IMG/VR virus record: IMGVR_UViG_3300032278_000138
Location: 1-21,417 of that record
Length of the DNA stretch: 21,417 nt
Strand: one strand, 5' to 3'
Origin: a virus
The translations under genes were made by a program, and so were the position numbers. This document shows positions 1-21,417 of this stretch, piece by piece (position 1 is the stretch's first letter; each line of letters begins with the position of its first letter). The notes under the pieces are model-generated. The model was not told where the DNA came from. It worked only from the letters and a program-made list of their open reading frames with translations, and made no database searches.

Positions 1-127
1 TGTTTCCGCCATCGACAAAAAACGTAATGTCATCGTCGTCAGCGACCGCCAACAATGTCATGGCACCCGAGGCGATTCCAGGTGCGCCACTCGCGCGAGT
101 CGTGGCTGTTCCAGACAAGTATTCGCG
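1..127. repeat. Terminal direct repeat, left copy (circular overlap)
   Basis: These 127 bases are identical, base for base, to 21291-21417. A reading frame runs through the join without interruption, so this is most simply the overlap of a circular assembly rather than a biological repeat. An overlap of exactly 127 is also a common assembler k-mer length. The unit genome is then about 21,290 bp. It could be a circularly permuted phage, a cos phage joined at its ends, or a circular plasmid-like form; the sequence alone does not decide. Confidence 0.95.
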
Positions 128-1108
128 GATCTGCGTGTTACCGCCGGAATCTATATTGCAGATCCAATAGTCGTCAGACGTACTGTTTCCCCTCAGCACG
201 ACCGATAAATTGCGGTCGTCAGAATCAAGTTGAACGAGGACATCCGATTCCCCTGCGTCTACCGTCGCCGCGTCGTTACCGCCGCCGTTTGTAGTGAAAG
301 CGTTCGATATGATTTCCGGGTCGCCAACAATTTCCGTCCACGCTAACCCGCTGCCGCCGCTTTCCTCTGCGCCCGCTCCATCGGTGTTGCCAAGCGTCGA
401 AGAATTTGCACGGTTAAATGAGTCACTAGCTAGTGGTGTAGGTGTCCAGAGGGCATCAGGCACGCGAGCGTAATCGCAGACGACAACCCCATCAAGATTC
501 GCAAGCATTGCGTATAGCGTGGCTGTGGAACCGGTCGCCGTAATGGATTCCAACAGCCACTCCGTGCCGTCTTGCACTAGGTAGTGAGCGCCTGCCGCAC
601 GTAGCACAATCGCCAATTTGTATCCTGCGCCGGTCGATAACCCGGCGTGCAATGCTGTCCCTGAGTCGTCGTCGATCTGTCCGTTCGCGGCATTCAGCTG
701 CAATGCGTGCTGGGCAGAATCGGGGTCGACAATCGCAGCAGCGGTATGCCAGCCCAATCCGAATTCTTCCCAGGTGGTGACGTTTATCGATGCTACCAAC
801 ACAACGCCCGCAGCTCTGCTAATCGCGCCTGATACGATTCCCTGGTCGCCCCATACCGGTGAAGATTGCGCTGGAAAAGTCACGGCTCCGGCCGCGATGG
901 AAAGTTGGCCGTCGGTTTCGACAACGGTCCAACTTCCGGGACCAGGCTCAGCAGTTCGCGGAGAACCAAGCGGCGCGGAATCCGCGGTCGTGAAATCGTC
1001 GCGGAGTTGATACGACAAGTCACCGCGCAGGCTATTTACGCCATCATTCCAAACGCCGGCGGTCCAAACTCCAGCGGTCCAAACTCCAGCGGTCCAAACA
1101 TTGGCCAT
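1..1108 (-). CDS. Tail fibre-like protein with lectin-fold modules, N-terminal part (gene crosses the circular join)
   Basis: Joined to 21160-21290 this makes a 412-residue protein. It begins at an ATG (1106-1108) directly after the TAA of the protease gene, so translation is probably coupled. The N-terminus is a repeat of VWTAG (residues 4-20), encoded by near-perfect 15-bp DNA repeats. Two similar beta-rich modules follow. One begins near residue 37 (DDFTTADSAPLG) and one near 229 (DSFNRANSSTLG), a pattern seen in concanavalin/LamG-like jelly-roll domains of phage tail proteins. No catalytic motif is visible. The likely role is an outer tail or receptor-binding protein; this is inferred from module type and composition. 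It lies apart from the main tail module, beside the protease. Confidence is high for the gene and moderate for the role. Confidence 0.8.
   Translation of the reverse strand, partial: MANVWTAGVWTAGVWTAGVWNDGVNSLRGDLSYQLRDDFTTADSAPLGSPRTAEPGPGSWTVVETDGQLSIAAGAVTFPAQSSPVWGDQGIVSGAISRAAGVVLVASINVTTWEEFGLGWHTAAAIVDPDSAQHALQLNAANGQIDDDSGTALHAGLSTGAGYKLAIVLRAAGAHYLVQDGTEWLLESITATGSTATLYAMLANLDGVVVCDYARVPDALWTPTPLASDSFNRANSSTLGNTDGAGAEESGGSGLAWTEIVGDPEIISNAFTTNGGGNDAATVDAGESDVLVQLDSDDRNLSVVLRGNSTSDDYWICNIDSGGNTQIREYLSGTATTRASGAPGIASGAMTLLAVADDDDITFFVDGGN
1061..1100 (-). repeat. 15-bp tandem repeat coding for VWTAG units
   Basis: The unit ggtccaaactccagc occurs twice in full at 1061-1075 and 1076-1090. 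A partial copy follows at 1091-1100 and a degenerate copy precedes it. Each unit encodes five residues of the fibre N-terminus, so changes in copy number would keep the frame. Confidence 0.85.
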
Positions 1109-2059
1109 TTACAAACCCAGTGATCGGCGTGGGACGAGAAAGTAATCCTCAATAGCCACGCCATCGAGCGTGACCTTGACGGCCTTTGGGAAGATCACCC
1201 GCACTGTATCGGTGGGATCGGCGGGATCGCCCGGCGGGCCATTGGTCCGGCGGGGCCTGAACAGATCGTCACCTTTGGGCTGTTCGGCGCCGCTGGTGAC
1301 AGTGTAACCCAGTCGGGCAAGCTGGGCAAAGTCCGTGTCATTAGGCCACCCACGCCGGGCCCGGGCCCCGCTGTTGATGATCGGATACATCAAGGCCGTA
1401 CCGTCGTTATTGTGGTTCATGCCTAGTCCGTGACCGAATTCGTGAGTCCCTGTTGTGCAACCAAAGACAAGCGACCAGCGGCGATCTGAGTCCCAGGCGC
1501 CATCAAGCGTGACATCGCAGCGGCTGACCGCCAACTCATGCCAGGCCAACGTACCGCCGCTGAGCCGGCGAAGAACGGCCCAGAAATCAGTCTTGGCCGG
1601 ATCAGTGGTGTCACTCGGCGTGATAGCCACGTCAGTCAAGGCGGCAGTCCAGTTGTTGCATATTGCATGCCACACATGGTCAGTTTCCGTGACGTTCAGG
1701 CCCGGCAGCGCGCCGAAATCACGGCCGGCTTTCAGGTCGCCCCGGCAGTCGTGGGGCCAATGCGCCGAGTGCTCGGACCCGTGATCCGCGAACCCGCAGC
1801 GCGGCAGCGTCATTAGCTCGCGCGTGGCCGGCCCCACGTCGCCATCGGCTACACTTTCAGTTCTGTTGTGGTGCTTCAGAACCAGATCATCAAGCGTGGG
1901 CTTCAGCAAAAGCTGATAGCTCTGCACGGCCGATCGTGTGGCCTGATCTTTTATCGTCAGCCGCGCCGTGTTCCCCGAAGCGGACTGGGCCAGCGGTGCC
2001 GCCGGATTTGAAAAATGGCCGAACGTATCCAGCACCTTAATCAGTTCTCGATTATCCAT
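1109..2059 (-). CDS. Matrixin-like metzincin metalloprotease with cysteine switch
   Basis: The protein has 316 residues from the ATG at 2057-2059, which has an AAAGGCGG ribosome-binding site; an upstream extension has weaker support. The zinc site HEFGHGLGMNH (residues 206-216) fits the metzincin signature HExxHxxGxxH, giving zinc ligands H206, H210 and H216 and the general base E207. A Met-turn ALMYP follows at 222-226. Residues about 30-85 resemble a small helical peptidoglycan-binding or MMP-type prodomain. It ends in LPRCGFAD (85-92), which matches the PRCGxPD cysteine switch that keeps matrix metalloproteases inactive. The region after about 260 is Pro-rich, then about 35 unassigned residues. 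No signal peptide is visible. The start overlaps the end of the exported protein upstream. A lysin or virion-associated protease acting on protein layers is inferred; the protease assignment itself is strong. Confidence 0.88.
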   Translation of the reverse strand: MDNRELIKVLDTFGHFSNPAAPLAQSASGNTARLTIKDQATRSAVQSYQLLLKPTLDDLVLKHHNRTESVADGDVGPATRELMTLPRCGFADHGSEHSAHWPHDCRGDLKAGRDFGALPGLNVTETDHVWHAICNNWTAALTDVAITPSDTTDPAKTDFWAVLRRLSGGTLAWHELAVSRCDVTLDGAWDSDRRWSLVFGCTTGTHEFGHGLGMNHNNDGTALMYPIINSGARARRGWPNDTDFAQLARLGYTVTSGAEQPKGDDLFRPRRTNGPPGDPADPTDTVRVIFPKAVKVTLDGVAIEDYFLVPRRSLGL

Positions 2060-2795
2060 TAGAAGCCGCCTTTTGAATTGCACCATTGTTGGTGGGGTCG
2101 TTGGCACCGGTCACGATTTTAAGGATCAGCTCGATGATCGTTGGGAAGTCGATCTGATCTCCCGACATGATGCCCCGGATAATCTCTAGAACGACCATCA
2201 ACCACCGGCGACCGCCGCCATCGAAAATGCCATCTTCGGCCGATCCGGAAGCGGCGGCCAGGCCGGCCGCGATATCTCCCAGGCTGGACTTGTCCAGCTG
2301 GTGACCCGCCGTGGCCCGGCGGATCAGCGCTTGATCTACAGCGGCTTGCCAGTCCGCCCAGGCGGCAGCCTGGCCGGTTTGTTGCAGGAATAATTGTTGG
2401 GCTACTCGAACGGCCTGACTGGCCTGGGAGTAGGTGCCAGTTTTAGACCTGGCGCCCGCGTACCAGATGCGGGCCAGCTCGACCGCCGTTTCGGGGTCGT
2501 TCACTTGCGCGGCGGCGGCCCGGGCAATTTCGGCCAATGCCGGCAGCTCGTCAGGCCCAGGGCCCGTATCGACCGGGCCGGGAATTACTCCGCCGGGCGT
2601 GACCACGGGGGTGACCACTTTCAAAGGTGCCAACTTGATCACGCCAGTAGGGCCCACAACCAGGAAGTAGTTGCCGGGCGGTGCACTGACGGCGAAAACC
2701 TGCGCGGCTCCCTGGGCGCGGCATTGGCCCAGCGCGGCGCAGGCCGCCAGCAAAAATGAAAAACAGACTACCACCTTGTTGGTGTTGGTCGTCAT
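2052..2795 (-). CDS. Exported protein or lipoprotein of unknown function
   Basis: The protein has 247 residues from the ATG at 2793-2795, preceded by GAGGG. An earlier ATG at 2876, one base after the previous stop, would add 27 charged residues in front of the signal sequence and is less likely. The N-terminus has lysine, then a hydrophobic run VVVCFSFLLAACAALG. LAAC (16-19) fits a lipobox with C19 as the lipidated residue, although signal peptidase I cleavage near AQG is also possible. A Pro/Gly-rich stretch (about 55-85) leads to an Ala-rich helical domain. Near the C-terminus is a moderately hydrophobic segment (WLMVVLEIIRGIM). I do not recognise the family. Its coupling to the protease gene (8-nt overlap) suggests a joint role at the cell envelope, perhaps in lysis or exclusion, but this is only an inference. 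Confidence 0.72.
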   Translation of the reverse strand: MTTNTNKVVVCFSFLLAACAALGQCRAQGAAQVFAVSAPPGNYFLVVGPTGVIKLAPLKVVTPVVTPGGVIPGPVDTGPGPDELPALAEIARAAAAQVNDPETAVELARIWYAGARSKTGTYSQASQAVRVAQQLFLQQTGQAAAWADWQAAVDQALIRRATAGHQLDKSSLGDIAAGLAAASGSAEDGIFDGGGRRWLMVVLEIIRGIMSGDQIDFPTIIELILKIVTGANDPTNNGAIQKAASNG

Positions 2796-2877
2796 CGTCA
2801 CTTTCCCTCTCGTAGTGTTATCAACATCCGCCCACCTTTTACGATTTCGGGGTATCGCCGAATCATATTCTTTCATT

Positions 2878-4918: not shown

Positions 4919-5156
4919 AAGTTGGCCCCTTCTCCATATCCATTAAGCAGCGCTGGTAGAAAAGCGTGCGGTGCTTGGTCTGGCGGTAGTAAATCAGGGC
5001 ACTCCAAACCGGCATGGCATTGACCATGTGTACCAGGATCGCATCGCGTTCACCTTTCTCCAGCCGGCCGTTGAATAAAAACCACCGAGTGCGTACGTCG
5101 TCCCGGGCAACTTCGCCCTGGGCATCAGCAACCAGATTTCCAAGATCGGTTTTCAC
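4905..5156 (-). CDS. Unidentified 83 aa protein
   Basis: The GTG start at 5154-5156 overlaps the TGA of the preceding frame. The protein has an acidic first third (KTDLGNLVADAQGEVARDD), a central aromatic part (RWFLFNGRLEKGERDAI, AMPVWSALIYYRQ) and a basic tail ending KGPTYARR. There is no signal peptide or recognisable motif. It is part of the compact small-gene run behind the integrase. Coding is supported mainly by the packing and the clean overlaps at both ends. Confidence 0.55.
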   Translation of the reverse strand: MKTDLGNLVADAQGEVARDDVRTRWFLFNGRLEKGERDAILVHMVNAMPVWSALIYYRQTKHRTLFYQRCLMDMEKGPTYARR

Positions 5157-5896
5157 GCGTTTAAGCTCCGTAAATAAGACCAGGCGGTCGGCAATCGCGG
5201 GTGCTTCGCGGCATTGTCCACCAGCGCGTTGTCGATGCGCACTAAGGCGGGCGACAGACAGAGTCCGTGACTATGTTTGGCAAGACAGTGGACATCTATG
5301 GCGTGGCCACGAATCTCCATAAGATGTGCGCGATGCCGACGGGGCGGTTGAGCGGCCCCAGTGGTCCGCCGGCGCGCGGTCCACAATGCACCGCACCCGC
5401 CGCCGGAATACTCTAAACCCAGATCGGCGCCGAATCGCGCATACCAACGGGCCGCCGCCGTAAACACACTGGAACATGCATTAAGCTCAAGCGACCAGGT
5501 GATTCGGTAGTATTTCTCTTGGCCAAAGTATATCTCCGACCAGGGCGCGCCCGTAATCGACCAGGTGCCGTTGGCTGATCCATTACTGACTGCGCTGTTT
5601 ATTGCGTCCAGGTTGGACTCGAACCATTCGGACGTGTATGTTTTTTCGATGGATAGCGCCGGCGGGTTTAAGTGGGCAGTCAAATCCGGCGCCGCGCTAA
5701 ACGGCACAAAACTGCCGCTGATCCGCGTGATCCAGGTGGGGTCGCTGGCTGGTCCGTGCCTTCTCCGCCGCCGAACGAAGTGTCTCAAATCGCCGGTCGC
5801 TGAATAGGTCGCGGTCATCACCCAGACTCTAAGTGAGCCGTCGGCGTTTAAGTCACCCGCCATCGAGGATACCCACGCGTTGTTTGATGTGATCAC
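5153..5896 (-). CDS. Degenerate paralogue of the post-tape-measure tail protein
   Basis: The 247 aa frame starts at a GTG overlapping the integrase stop. It is clearly related to the 317 aa protein at 8857-9810. Matching blocks include DGSL(R/K)VWVMT, TRISGSFVPF, LSIEKTYT, EWFE(S/A)NLD and FGQEKYYRITWS. At DNA level 5582-5650 matches 9262-9330 in 62 of 69 positions. The copy lacks about 60 N-terminal residues and several internal segments. Its Gly-rich loop (FGGGEGT in the parent) is read in a shifted frame as VRRRRRH, after which the frame is restored. The last 65 residues are unrelated to the parent. The open frame and overlaps at both ends argue that it may still be translated, perhaps with a new role; otherwise it is a decaying duplicate. 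Confidence 0.7.
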   Translation of the reverse strand: MITSNNAWVSSMAGDLNADGSLRVWVMTATYSATGDLRHFVRRRRRHGPASDPTWITRISGSFVPFSAAPDLTAHLNPPALSIEKTYTSEWFESNLDAINSAVSNGSANGTWSITGAPWSEIYFGQEKYYRITWSLELNACSSVFTAAARWYARFGADLGLEYSGGGCGALWTARRRTTGAAQPPRRHRAHLMEIRGHAIDVHCLAKHSHGLCLSPALVRIDNALVDNAAKHPRLPTAWSYLRSLNA

Positions 5897-7077: not shown

Positions 7078-7380
7078 GTGGCTGTCACTAATCCAACAAT
7101 CTTCGACAGTGAACAACGGACGATAGAAATGGATTATTTTGAGGAGCTACAGATTGTAGCTGCCGGCGGGGCCACCCTAGGCGTGCAGTTAGCTAGCGCG
7201 GCTCCCTTCGCCGATTGGGTGCAGTTGTTCGGCAGCGCCGGACCAATGGCCGCCCTGGTCGCCTTTTTTGTGTGGCAAACTTGGCAGCGTGAAAGGCATT
7301 GGCGCGACGAGCGTAAAGCGTACCAAGACCAGATCGTCAGGCTCGAAGACAAATTAATAGGAATTCGGGACCAGCGCTAG
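7078..7380 (+). CDS. Small membrane protein, holin-like
   Basis: This 100 aa product comes from the only plus-strand gene. The GTG start at 7078-7080 has GGGAGG nine bases upstream; an internal ATG at 7129 lacks such a site. After a polar start there is a Gly/Ala-rich amphipathic stretch (residues 23-44). A single hydrophobic membrane segment follows (about 50-68, GPMAALVAFFVWQ), then a highly charged coiled-coil tail (70-100, RERHWRDERKAYQ). One membrane helix, a charged tail and small size fit a holin or another small phage membrane protein. Being transcribed separately from all other genes would allow independent timing. Its TAG overlaps the stop of the convergent gene in the sequence CTAG. 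Confidence 0.65.
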   Translation: MAVTNPTIFDSEQRTIEMDYFEELQIVAAGGATLGVQLASAAPFADWVQLFGSAGPMAALVAFFVWQTWQRERHWRDERKAYQDQIVRLEDKLIGIRDQR

Positions 7381-8856: not shown

Positions 8857-9810
8857 CTATAAAGTCTCAGGCAGGGAAAACTTGGCGTTGAAATCGACCG
8901 GCGGGTAAACCTCGAACGGATCACCGGCCGAGTCAGTGCCGGCGCCGTCAAAATAAATCACCACGGGGTCACTACTGCGGGCCCGTTGTGTGCCGTCCGC
9001 CTCCAGTGCGCCACGGCCGTCGCCGGAATACTGCAGACCCAGATCGTCGGCGAATCGCGTATAGGTGCCGGTCAGGCCGCCCACCCAATGCGCTGGCCCT
9101 ACGTTGGCTGGTTTTAGGTGCCAGGTGTCCGTATTAAGCTCAATCGACCAGGTGATTCTGTAGTATTTCTCCTGCCCGAAGAAGAGCTGCGACCAGGGCG
9201 CGCCGGTAATCTTCCAAGTGTCTGCCGAATGGTACATCCAGATCAAATCGTTAACCGCGCTGTTGCTGACTGCGATGTTTATTGAGTCCAGGTTGGCCTC
9301 GAACCATTCGGCCGTGTATGTTTTCTCGATCGACAATGTTGGCCGGTTCTTGTCCTTTGTCAGACCTTCAAACAAATCCTTTGCGGCGTTGACGACAGGA
9401 TCGCCGTGGCGGTCGCGGCTGACCGCCTCCTGAAACGGAACAAAACTGCCGCTGATTCGCGTGATAGTGGTGGGGTCGTTGGTGCCTTCTCCACCGCCAA
9501 ACAAAGTCTGATCCGGGCGCAATACGCCGGCCGACGAATAGGTTACGGTCATCACCCAAACCTTAAGTGAGCCGTCTTCGCTCAGGTAGTCGCAACTCGC
9601 GGCCGATCGATAGGCGCCTGGATCGGCTTCCAGACCGCCGCCGAATTCATAGCTAGATCCGTATGCTGGCGACAGAATGTCGGTCAGGATCGTTAGCGGC
9701 CCATCGCTGCGATTATCGGTGCGGACTGTGTAATCGACGTTCCACTGGCGGTTGCCGTCGCGATCGAACCCGCCCCGCGCGCTGCGCTCTGATACTTTAA
9801 TCACACTCAT
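8857..9810 (-). CDS. Distal tail candidate following the tape measure
   Basis: The protein has 317 residues, its ATG overlapping the tape measure stop (ATGA). In siphoviruses this slot normally encodes the distal tail or hub protein. The sequence is beta-rich, with a receptor-like block of aromatic strands (WKITGAPWSQLFFGQEKYY) and a C-terminal part ending FNAKFSLPETL. No recognised domain or enzyme motif is present, so the assignment rests on position. A partial, degraded copy follows the integrase at 5153-5896, the only clear internal duplication in this genome. Confidence 0.68.
   Translation of the reverse strand: MSVIKVSERSARGGFDRDGNRQWNVDYTVRTDNRSDGPLTILTDILSPAYGSSYEFGGGLEADPGAYRSAASCDYLSEDGSLKVWVMTVTYSSAGVLRPDQTLFGGGEGTNDPTTITRISGSFVPFQEAVSRDRHGDPVVNAAKDLFEGLTKDKNRPTLSIEKTYTAEWFEANLDSINIAVSNSAVNDLIWMYHSADTWKITGAPWSQLFFGQEKYYRITWSIELNTDTWHLKPANVGPAHWVGGLTGTYTRFADDLGLQYSGDGRGALEADGTQRARSSDPVVIYFDGAGTDSAGDPFEVYPPVDFNAKFSLPETL
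9015..9580 (-). repeat. Parent segment of an internal duplication (copy at about 5395-5880)
   Basis: The coding DNA here reappears, shortened and diverged, behind the integrase. The best block is 9262-9330 against 5582-5650, with 62 of 69 identical bases. Both copies are in the same orientation, so they form a direct repeat that flanks the integrase and the holin-like gene. Confidence 0.8.
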
Positions 9811-21163: not shown

Positions 21164-21417
21164 ATCCAGCTAGGCGTTGTTGGTTTACGTGGCCAGATAG
21201 CGAAATTATTTACAGCCGGCACACTGCTGCCTAGTCGTATGCCGTGACAAGTTGCAGTTTTGTAGGCTGACGCCAAGCCGTAGGTCAGCCTGTTTCCGCC
21301 ATCGACAAAAAACGTAATGTCATCGTCGTCAGCGACCGCCAACAATGTCATGGCACCCGAGGCGATTCCAGGTGCGCCACTCGCGCGAGTCGTGGCTGTT
21401 CCAGACAAGTATTCGCG
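21160..21417 (-). CDS. Tail fibre-like protein, C-terminal part of the join-spanning gene
   Basis: This is the continuation of the gene that starts at 1108. Only 21160-21290 is unique; the rest repeats the window start. It encodes about the last 43 residues, ending in TTPSWM before a TGA at 21160-21162. The frame matches that of the left-hand part: 1108 and 118, the circular equivalent of 21408, differ by 990, a multiple of three. A TTG codon at 21408 could be mistaken for a start and give an 82 aa protein, but the frame is open well upstream, so that is an artefact of cutting the circle. The next gene starts at a GTG overlapping this stop. Confidence 0.8.
   Translation of the reverse strand, partial: REYLSGTATTRASGAPGIASGAMTLLAVADDDDITFFVDGGNRLTYGLASAYKTATCHGIRLGSSVPAVNNFAIWPRKPTTPSWM
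21291..21417. repeat. Terminal direct repeat, right copy (circular overlap)
   Basis: This is an exact copy of positions 1-127. It should be removed when the genome is circularised. The coding sequence that ends at 21160 enters through this segment. Confidence 0.95.

Follow-up and report, generated by a model that had tools for sequence, protein, structure and literature searches.

A proMMP-type matrixin zymogen encoded in lysis-like gene blocks of phages that probably infect planctomycetes

The vertebrate proenzymes proMMP-1, -3, -9 and -10 (M10A) are built in the same order: a prodomain with a peptidoglycan (PG)-binding fold, a PRCG cysteine switch, the zinc motif HExxHxxGxxH and a Met-turn. 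Karilysin and mirolysin of Tannerella have the matrixin catalytic fold in common with them and are secreted; to our knowledge, neither contains a PG-binding-type prodomain with PRCG. Mirolysin is held latent via a cysteine, Cys23, in its profragment (PMC8259862). In the Mtz-Tim system of Listeria, a metzincin of phage origin is encoded beside a lipoprotein and enhances phage-driven lysis. Mtz is secreted by its own signal peptide and works with a conventional holin-lysin (PMC8235301); the likeness to the enzyme considered here is so far one of description.

The stretch of viral DNA analysed here (IMG/VR record IMGVR_UViG_3300032278_000138, 21,417 nt; hereafter the window) encodes a matrixin with the order of parts of the vertebrate proMMPs. 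In contrast to these, and to the secreted Tannerella enzymes, it has no signal peptide. It also lacks a haemopexin domain, ending instead in a short C-terminal hairpin, and in most relatives the phage gene lies near genes for holin-like and exported proteins. Modular endolysins that begin with a PG_binding_1 domain are similar: the order of domains is alike, a signal peptide is absent and a holin-like protein is encoded nearby. The phage enzyme differs in carrying a matrixin in place of a muralytic catalytic domain and in the cysteine switch that closes its PG-binding-like domain.

Architecture of the window matrixin

The features of the matrixin open reading frame, all on the minus strand, are as follows.

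1109..2059 (-): matrixin (M10) zymogen of 316 aa, ATG start at 2059, no signal peptide
1811..2059 (-): helical prodomain, PG_binding_1-like, residues 1–83 (Pfam, AF2 model)
1784..1810 (-): cysteine switch TLPRCGFAD, residues 84–92, with the C88 codon at nt 1796–1798
1310..1762 (-): metzincin catalytic domain, approximately residues 100–250, AF2 pLDDT mostly 86–96
1412..1444 (-): zinc motif HEFGHGLGMNH, residues 206–216, read directly
1382..1396 (-): Met-turn ALMYP, residues 222–226 (M224), read directly
1112..1309 (-): C-terminal tail with a short beta hairpin, VKVTLDG..DYFLVP

An earlier note on this DNA had reported the zinc motif, the Met-turn and PRCGFAD in this reading frame, and direct reading confirmed all three; PRCG occupies residues 86–89 (nt 1793–1804). 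The sequence AAAAGGCGG lies just 5' of the ATG at 2059. The window matrixin scored 27.8 bits against Pfam PF00413 (Peptidase_M10; cut-off 24), and a phmmer search of the PDB matched MMP-9 at 2.8e-5, with a separate weak stretch placing PRCG on the MMP-9 switch. Since the PF00413 cut-off is exceeded, MMP-9 is matched in the PDB and all 45 aligned viral relatives keep C88, the matrixin call is not due to chance. The prodomain of this member matched PG_binding_1 at E=0.26, under the cut-off. No hydrophobic N-terminus or secretion signal was found in the protein (P0001; maximum KD 0.41).

When a profile of the viral family was compared with human proMMP-1, the alignment spanned the prodomain, switch and catalytic domain (E=4.6e-38). 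The AF2 model of the window matrixin has a mean pLDDT of 79 with a confident catalytic domain, falling to 58–64 around the cysteine switch. Its top fold matches in the PDB were the proenzymes of MMP-9, -10, -1 and -3, and target-normalised TM-scores against MMP catalytic domains were 0.65–0.75. Karilysin (2xs3/2xs4) was matched as well, in the phmmer and family-profile searches. The profile alignment with proMMP-1 and the proenzymes as best PDB matches point to the architecture of an MMP zymogen, and the order of prodomain, switch and metzincin domain put forward in the earlier note is borne out by both comparisons. As judged from sequence and predicted structure, the window protein almost certainly has the architecture of a proMMP-type zymogen, in which C88 would be the zinc ligand that holds the enzyme latent.

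The earlier note had considered such an enzyme unusual for a small phage. Known virus M10 enzymes and several phage M10-like entries are already in the databases, so this stands only for the complete proMMP architecture, which is the unusual part. Among virus-encoded metalloproteases, the fold search matched entries from Lactobacillus phage 3-521 and Maribacter phage Colly_1 as well as MMPs of insect viruses; most of these matches are shorter and lie in the catalytic domain. The only phage protein that matched over nearly the whole length was A0A6J5RTD2, an uncharacterised protein of 297 aa from an uncultured Caudovirales phage.

The viral family and its gene neighbourhoods

Single-protein searches with the window matrixin recovered no relative in viral contigs, INPHARED or plasmids, and a scan of the genome collection returned only short generic matrixin matches. 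A degenerate zinc-motif scan combined with an alignment scan of IMG/VR identified 69 loci on contigs of approximately 10 to 205 kb. These represent about 49 distinct members that are 21–30% identical to the window matrixin. Invariant positions in a 45-member alignment include G14, R87, C88, D92, W137, H206, E207, H210, G213 and H216, and M224 is conserved in at least 90%. Peptidase_M10 was matched by all 45 relatives (E<=0.01) and PG_binding_1 by 41 of the 45; the window member, taken alone, scores below the latter cut-off. The tail hairpin recurs among the relatives as GTIxINGRPYxLVPxT. None of the N-termini is signal-peptide-like, the two highest hydrophobicity values belonging to L209 and L210, and the proteins are therefore presumably made in the cytosol.

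The family is apparently undescribed. The literature searched, mostly outside subscription journals, contained neither a description of it nor any phage family that combines the full proMMP layout with a lysis-like gene block. An origin of the matrixin as a Planctomycetota host gene was considered and is unsupported, as none of 392 Planctomycetota genomes contained a full-length member. At loci L217 and L218, two Planctomycetota genomes carry matrixins that seem not to be exported; each has a helical domain at its N-terminus and, near the switch position, a cysteine (IGCAGR, PSCLGTR). These are possible host relatives of the viral family.

In most of the 49 distinct loci the usual gene order is a protein with two transmembrane segments (2-TM), a D protein, the matrixin, an exported protein (B2) and a papain-like protease. 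The 2-TM protein was found in 39 loci, the D protein in 42, B2 in 37 and the papain-like protease in 38; since approximately 40 of the 49 loci belong to one lineage of large phages, these counts are not independent. Another five of these loci (L148, L151, L162, L206, L214) present a different set, in somewhat varying order, which is composed of a transmembrane coiled-coil (TM-coil) protein, an exported protein B, the matrixin and D. The matrixin lies among DNA-metabolism genes in L146 and among head-tail genes in L070/L209. Neither type of holin-like neighbour, 2-TM or TM-coil, matched a holin family or carried a PHROGs holin label, and the sequences of the B and B2 proteins are diverse or show no relationship. 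With respect to the exported partner noted earlier, many relatives thus preserve a cassette of matrixin, holin-like and exported proteins.

Other genes near the family members include a GroES-like protein directly 5' of one matrixin (L147:735-1085). A MuF-like head protein (L040:7461-10127, minus strand) appears to be interrupted by an insert resembling an intein (CVTGEMRICSPG ... VSSNC); a reading frame for an endonuclease-like protein lies on the opposite strand.

The window itself begins and ends with an exact 127-bp repeat (1–127 = 21291–21417), which indicates a circular assembly and a genome of 21,290 bp that is probably complete, although 127 bp may be the assembler word length instead of a physical terminus. 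Three further window genes bear on the neighbourhood of the matrixin.

2052..2876 (-): protein B, exported, start probably near 2795–2801
1..1108, across the circle to 21290–21160 (-): fibre-like protein 3' of the matrixin, TAAATG junction
7078..7380 (+): small protein with membrane and coiled-coil segments, matching the TM-coil protein weakly (E=0.015)

An 8-nt overlap (ATGGATAA) links the stop of the upstream reading frame, protein B, to the matrixin start, and on the other side the fibre-like gene follows by a direct TAAATG junction; the coupling to an exported protein and a fibre gene that had been proposed therefore holds. Protein B begins with a hydrophobic segment and a lipobox-like LAAC. 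The family profiles match these neighbours only weakly: protein B is the sole window reading frame within the inclusion threshold of the B profile, at E=4.8e-4. Unlike the TM-coil proteins that accompany matrixins elsewhere, the TM-coil-like protein of the window is not adjacent to the matrixin. A reading of protein B as B with a fused D domain was rejected (hhalign E=0.11). Elsewhere in the window, a distal-tail-like gene is partly duplicated (5156–5896 and 8860–9810), the second copy just after the integrase; the stretches 5480–5567 and 9133–9220 are 85% identical, and 5690–5748 and 9424–9482 are 83% identical.

Planctomycetota prophages and the host

The B profile matched 5 of 387 Planctomycetota genomes (G337, G299, G389 and, weakly, G210 and G213) as compared with none of 398 Pseudomonadota genomes. 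The loci of the first four were examined. Contig C2 of G337 supplied one row of the profile and is matched by construction, which does not apply to G299, to G389, to another locus in G337 or to the weak match in G210. Several of the prophage B proteins have lipobox-like ends, as does window B. In five prophage loci (L237, L267–L270), the slot after B is filled by a protein in which a Gln, a Cys, a His and an Asn are conserved without exception. A model of this family (pLDDT 64) matched xylellain at 1.1e-8 and then cathepsins. From these residues and the model, the protein is a predicted papain-like protease, and it occupies a slot equivalent to that of the matrixin, after an exported protein.

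Contig C2 of G337 carries a sibling of the window phage, with capsid proteins 44–46% identical, terminase 30% identical and an integrase after the tail genes. This sibling is the main evidence for the host which, given the shared lysis-block proteins as well, is probably a planctomycete. The capsid protein was dropped as a host marker because it also has a Pseudomonadota match at 42%.

Proposed role and alternatives

The catalytic domain of the window matrixin is M10, with no known muralytic domain by Pfam or PHROG. Lysozyme, amidase, CHAP, NlpC and transglycosylase domains were all absent from the window in the same scans. Pfam scans of the 37-kb sibling prophage and of a complete 59-kb relative (G007, 29-bp terminal repeat) found no muralytic domain, and there was none among the Pfam matches listed for the 200-kb relative G015, for which reading frames of 110–600 aa were covered. 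The earlier statement that no amidase, lysozyme or transglycosylase is recognisable can thus be extended from the window to three relatives. These phages may encode an endolysin of an unrecognised type. By eye, L162 has a YiiX/NlpC-like neighbour that drew no Pfam call.

All steps of the following proposal that go beyond the latent zymogen layout and its lysis-like surroundings are ones that we infer. Lacking a signal peptide, the matrixin would stay in the cytosol after its synthesis, kept silent inside the host by ligation of the zinc to its switch cysteine. A holin-like membrane protein would release it towards the end of infection, and loss of the switch by cleavage or oxidation would activate it. 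The targets of the active enzyme may be proteins of the host envelope, cross-linking peptides in the wall or the exported partner, and it would open the cell either instead of a muralytic endolysin or together with one. The Listeria Mtz-Tim pair is a precedent, as a metzincin of phage origin there promotes lysis by way of its lipoprotein partner (PMC8235301). A part in lysis stands at about an even chance in our judgement, and we are evenly divided on the fuller reading of a latent cytosolic zymogen, freed when the cell lyses, with proteins or peptides of the host envelope as its substrates. Against this reading stand the L146 and L070/L209 copies outside such blocks, the lack of a holin-family match for the holin-like proteins, the weak profile matches of the window neighbours and the failure to find a full-length member in 392 Planctomycetota genomes. 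A broader proposal is more tentative: that planctomycete phages end infection by latent proteases, either the proMMP-type matrixin or the papain-like protease of the same slot, and not by muralytic endolysins, with holin-like release, an envelope opened by protein cutting and the cysteine switch as a safety catch.

Planctomycetes have a lysozyme-sensitive peptidoglycan sacculus (PMC4432640), so the idea of a proteinaceous envelope in the earlier note needs care. Against such sacculi, an enzyme that cuts only proteins could succeed if the envelope depends on protein or if peptides of the wall are also cleaved; a pure protease might fail to break the planctomycete sacculus. The presence of peptidoglycan also favors a reading of the matrixin as a peptidoglycan endopeptidase, an endolysin in function with an unusual fold, whose PG-binding-like domain targets the sacculus and whose M10 domain cuts peptide cross-links. 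PG_binding_1 in 41 of 45 members and the lack of any other muralytic domain found are in its favor; however, the same fold is a prodomain in MMPs, the window copy is below the PG_binding_1 cut-off, a papain-like protease fills the slot elsewhere and the literature searched contained no M10 peptidoglycan endopeptidase. We regard this reading as unlikely. Still less probable is that the matrixin mainly cuts the neighbouring exported protein, a released part of which weakens the envelope as in Mtz-Tim. That precedent (PMC8235301), the lipobox-like ends of the B proteins and the exported protein that adjoins or lies near the matrixin in most clades are set against the diversity of B and B2 and the pairing of B with papain-like proteases too.

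The fibre-like gene directly 3' in the window and the copy between head-tail genes in L070/L209 would suit a virion-associated or maturation protease that acts on fibres or at entry, but the window encodes a separate S78 prohead protease and the neighbours in most relatives are membrane and exported proteins, which makes this role improbable; no observation here points directly to a virion enzyme. The least probable of the alternatives is an accessory protease directed against host extracellular or anti-phage proteins and dispensable for lysis. While the L146 copy amid DNA-metabolism genes and the additional trypsin-like and papain-like proteases of the 200-kb relative are compatible with it, the recurrent linkage with holin-like proteins and the lack of a signal peptide for secretion speak against it. 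Alongside its matrixin and these two proteases, that relative (G015, L275–L280) encodes a protein with collagen repeats and an actin-like volactin.

That the MMP zymogen layout occurs as a widespread family of phage genes bears on the origin of the MMP prodomain. Should the proposed role of the matrixin in lysis be true, phages of a phylum with a long-disputed cell wall would have a protease-based exit, and lysis would be timed in a new way, by the zymogen switch. Exported thioredoxin-like proteins are encoded near several of the protease blocks (L214:6964-7545, L206:10490-11242 and L270:7025-7555) and could have a bearing on redox control of the cysteine switch or of the thiol protease.
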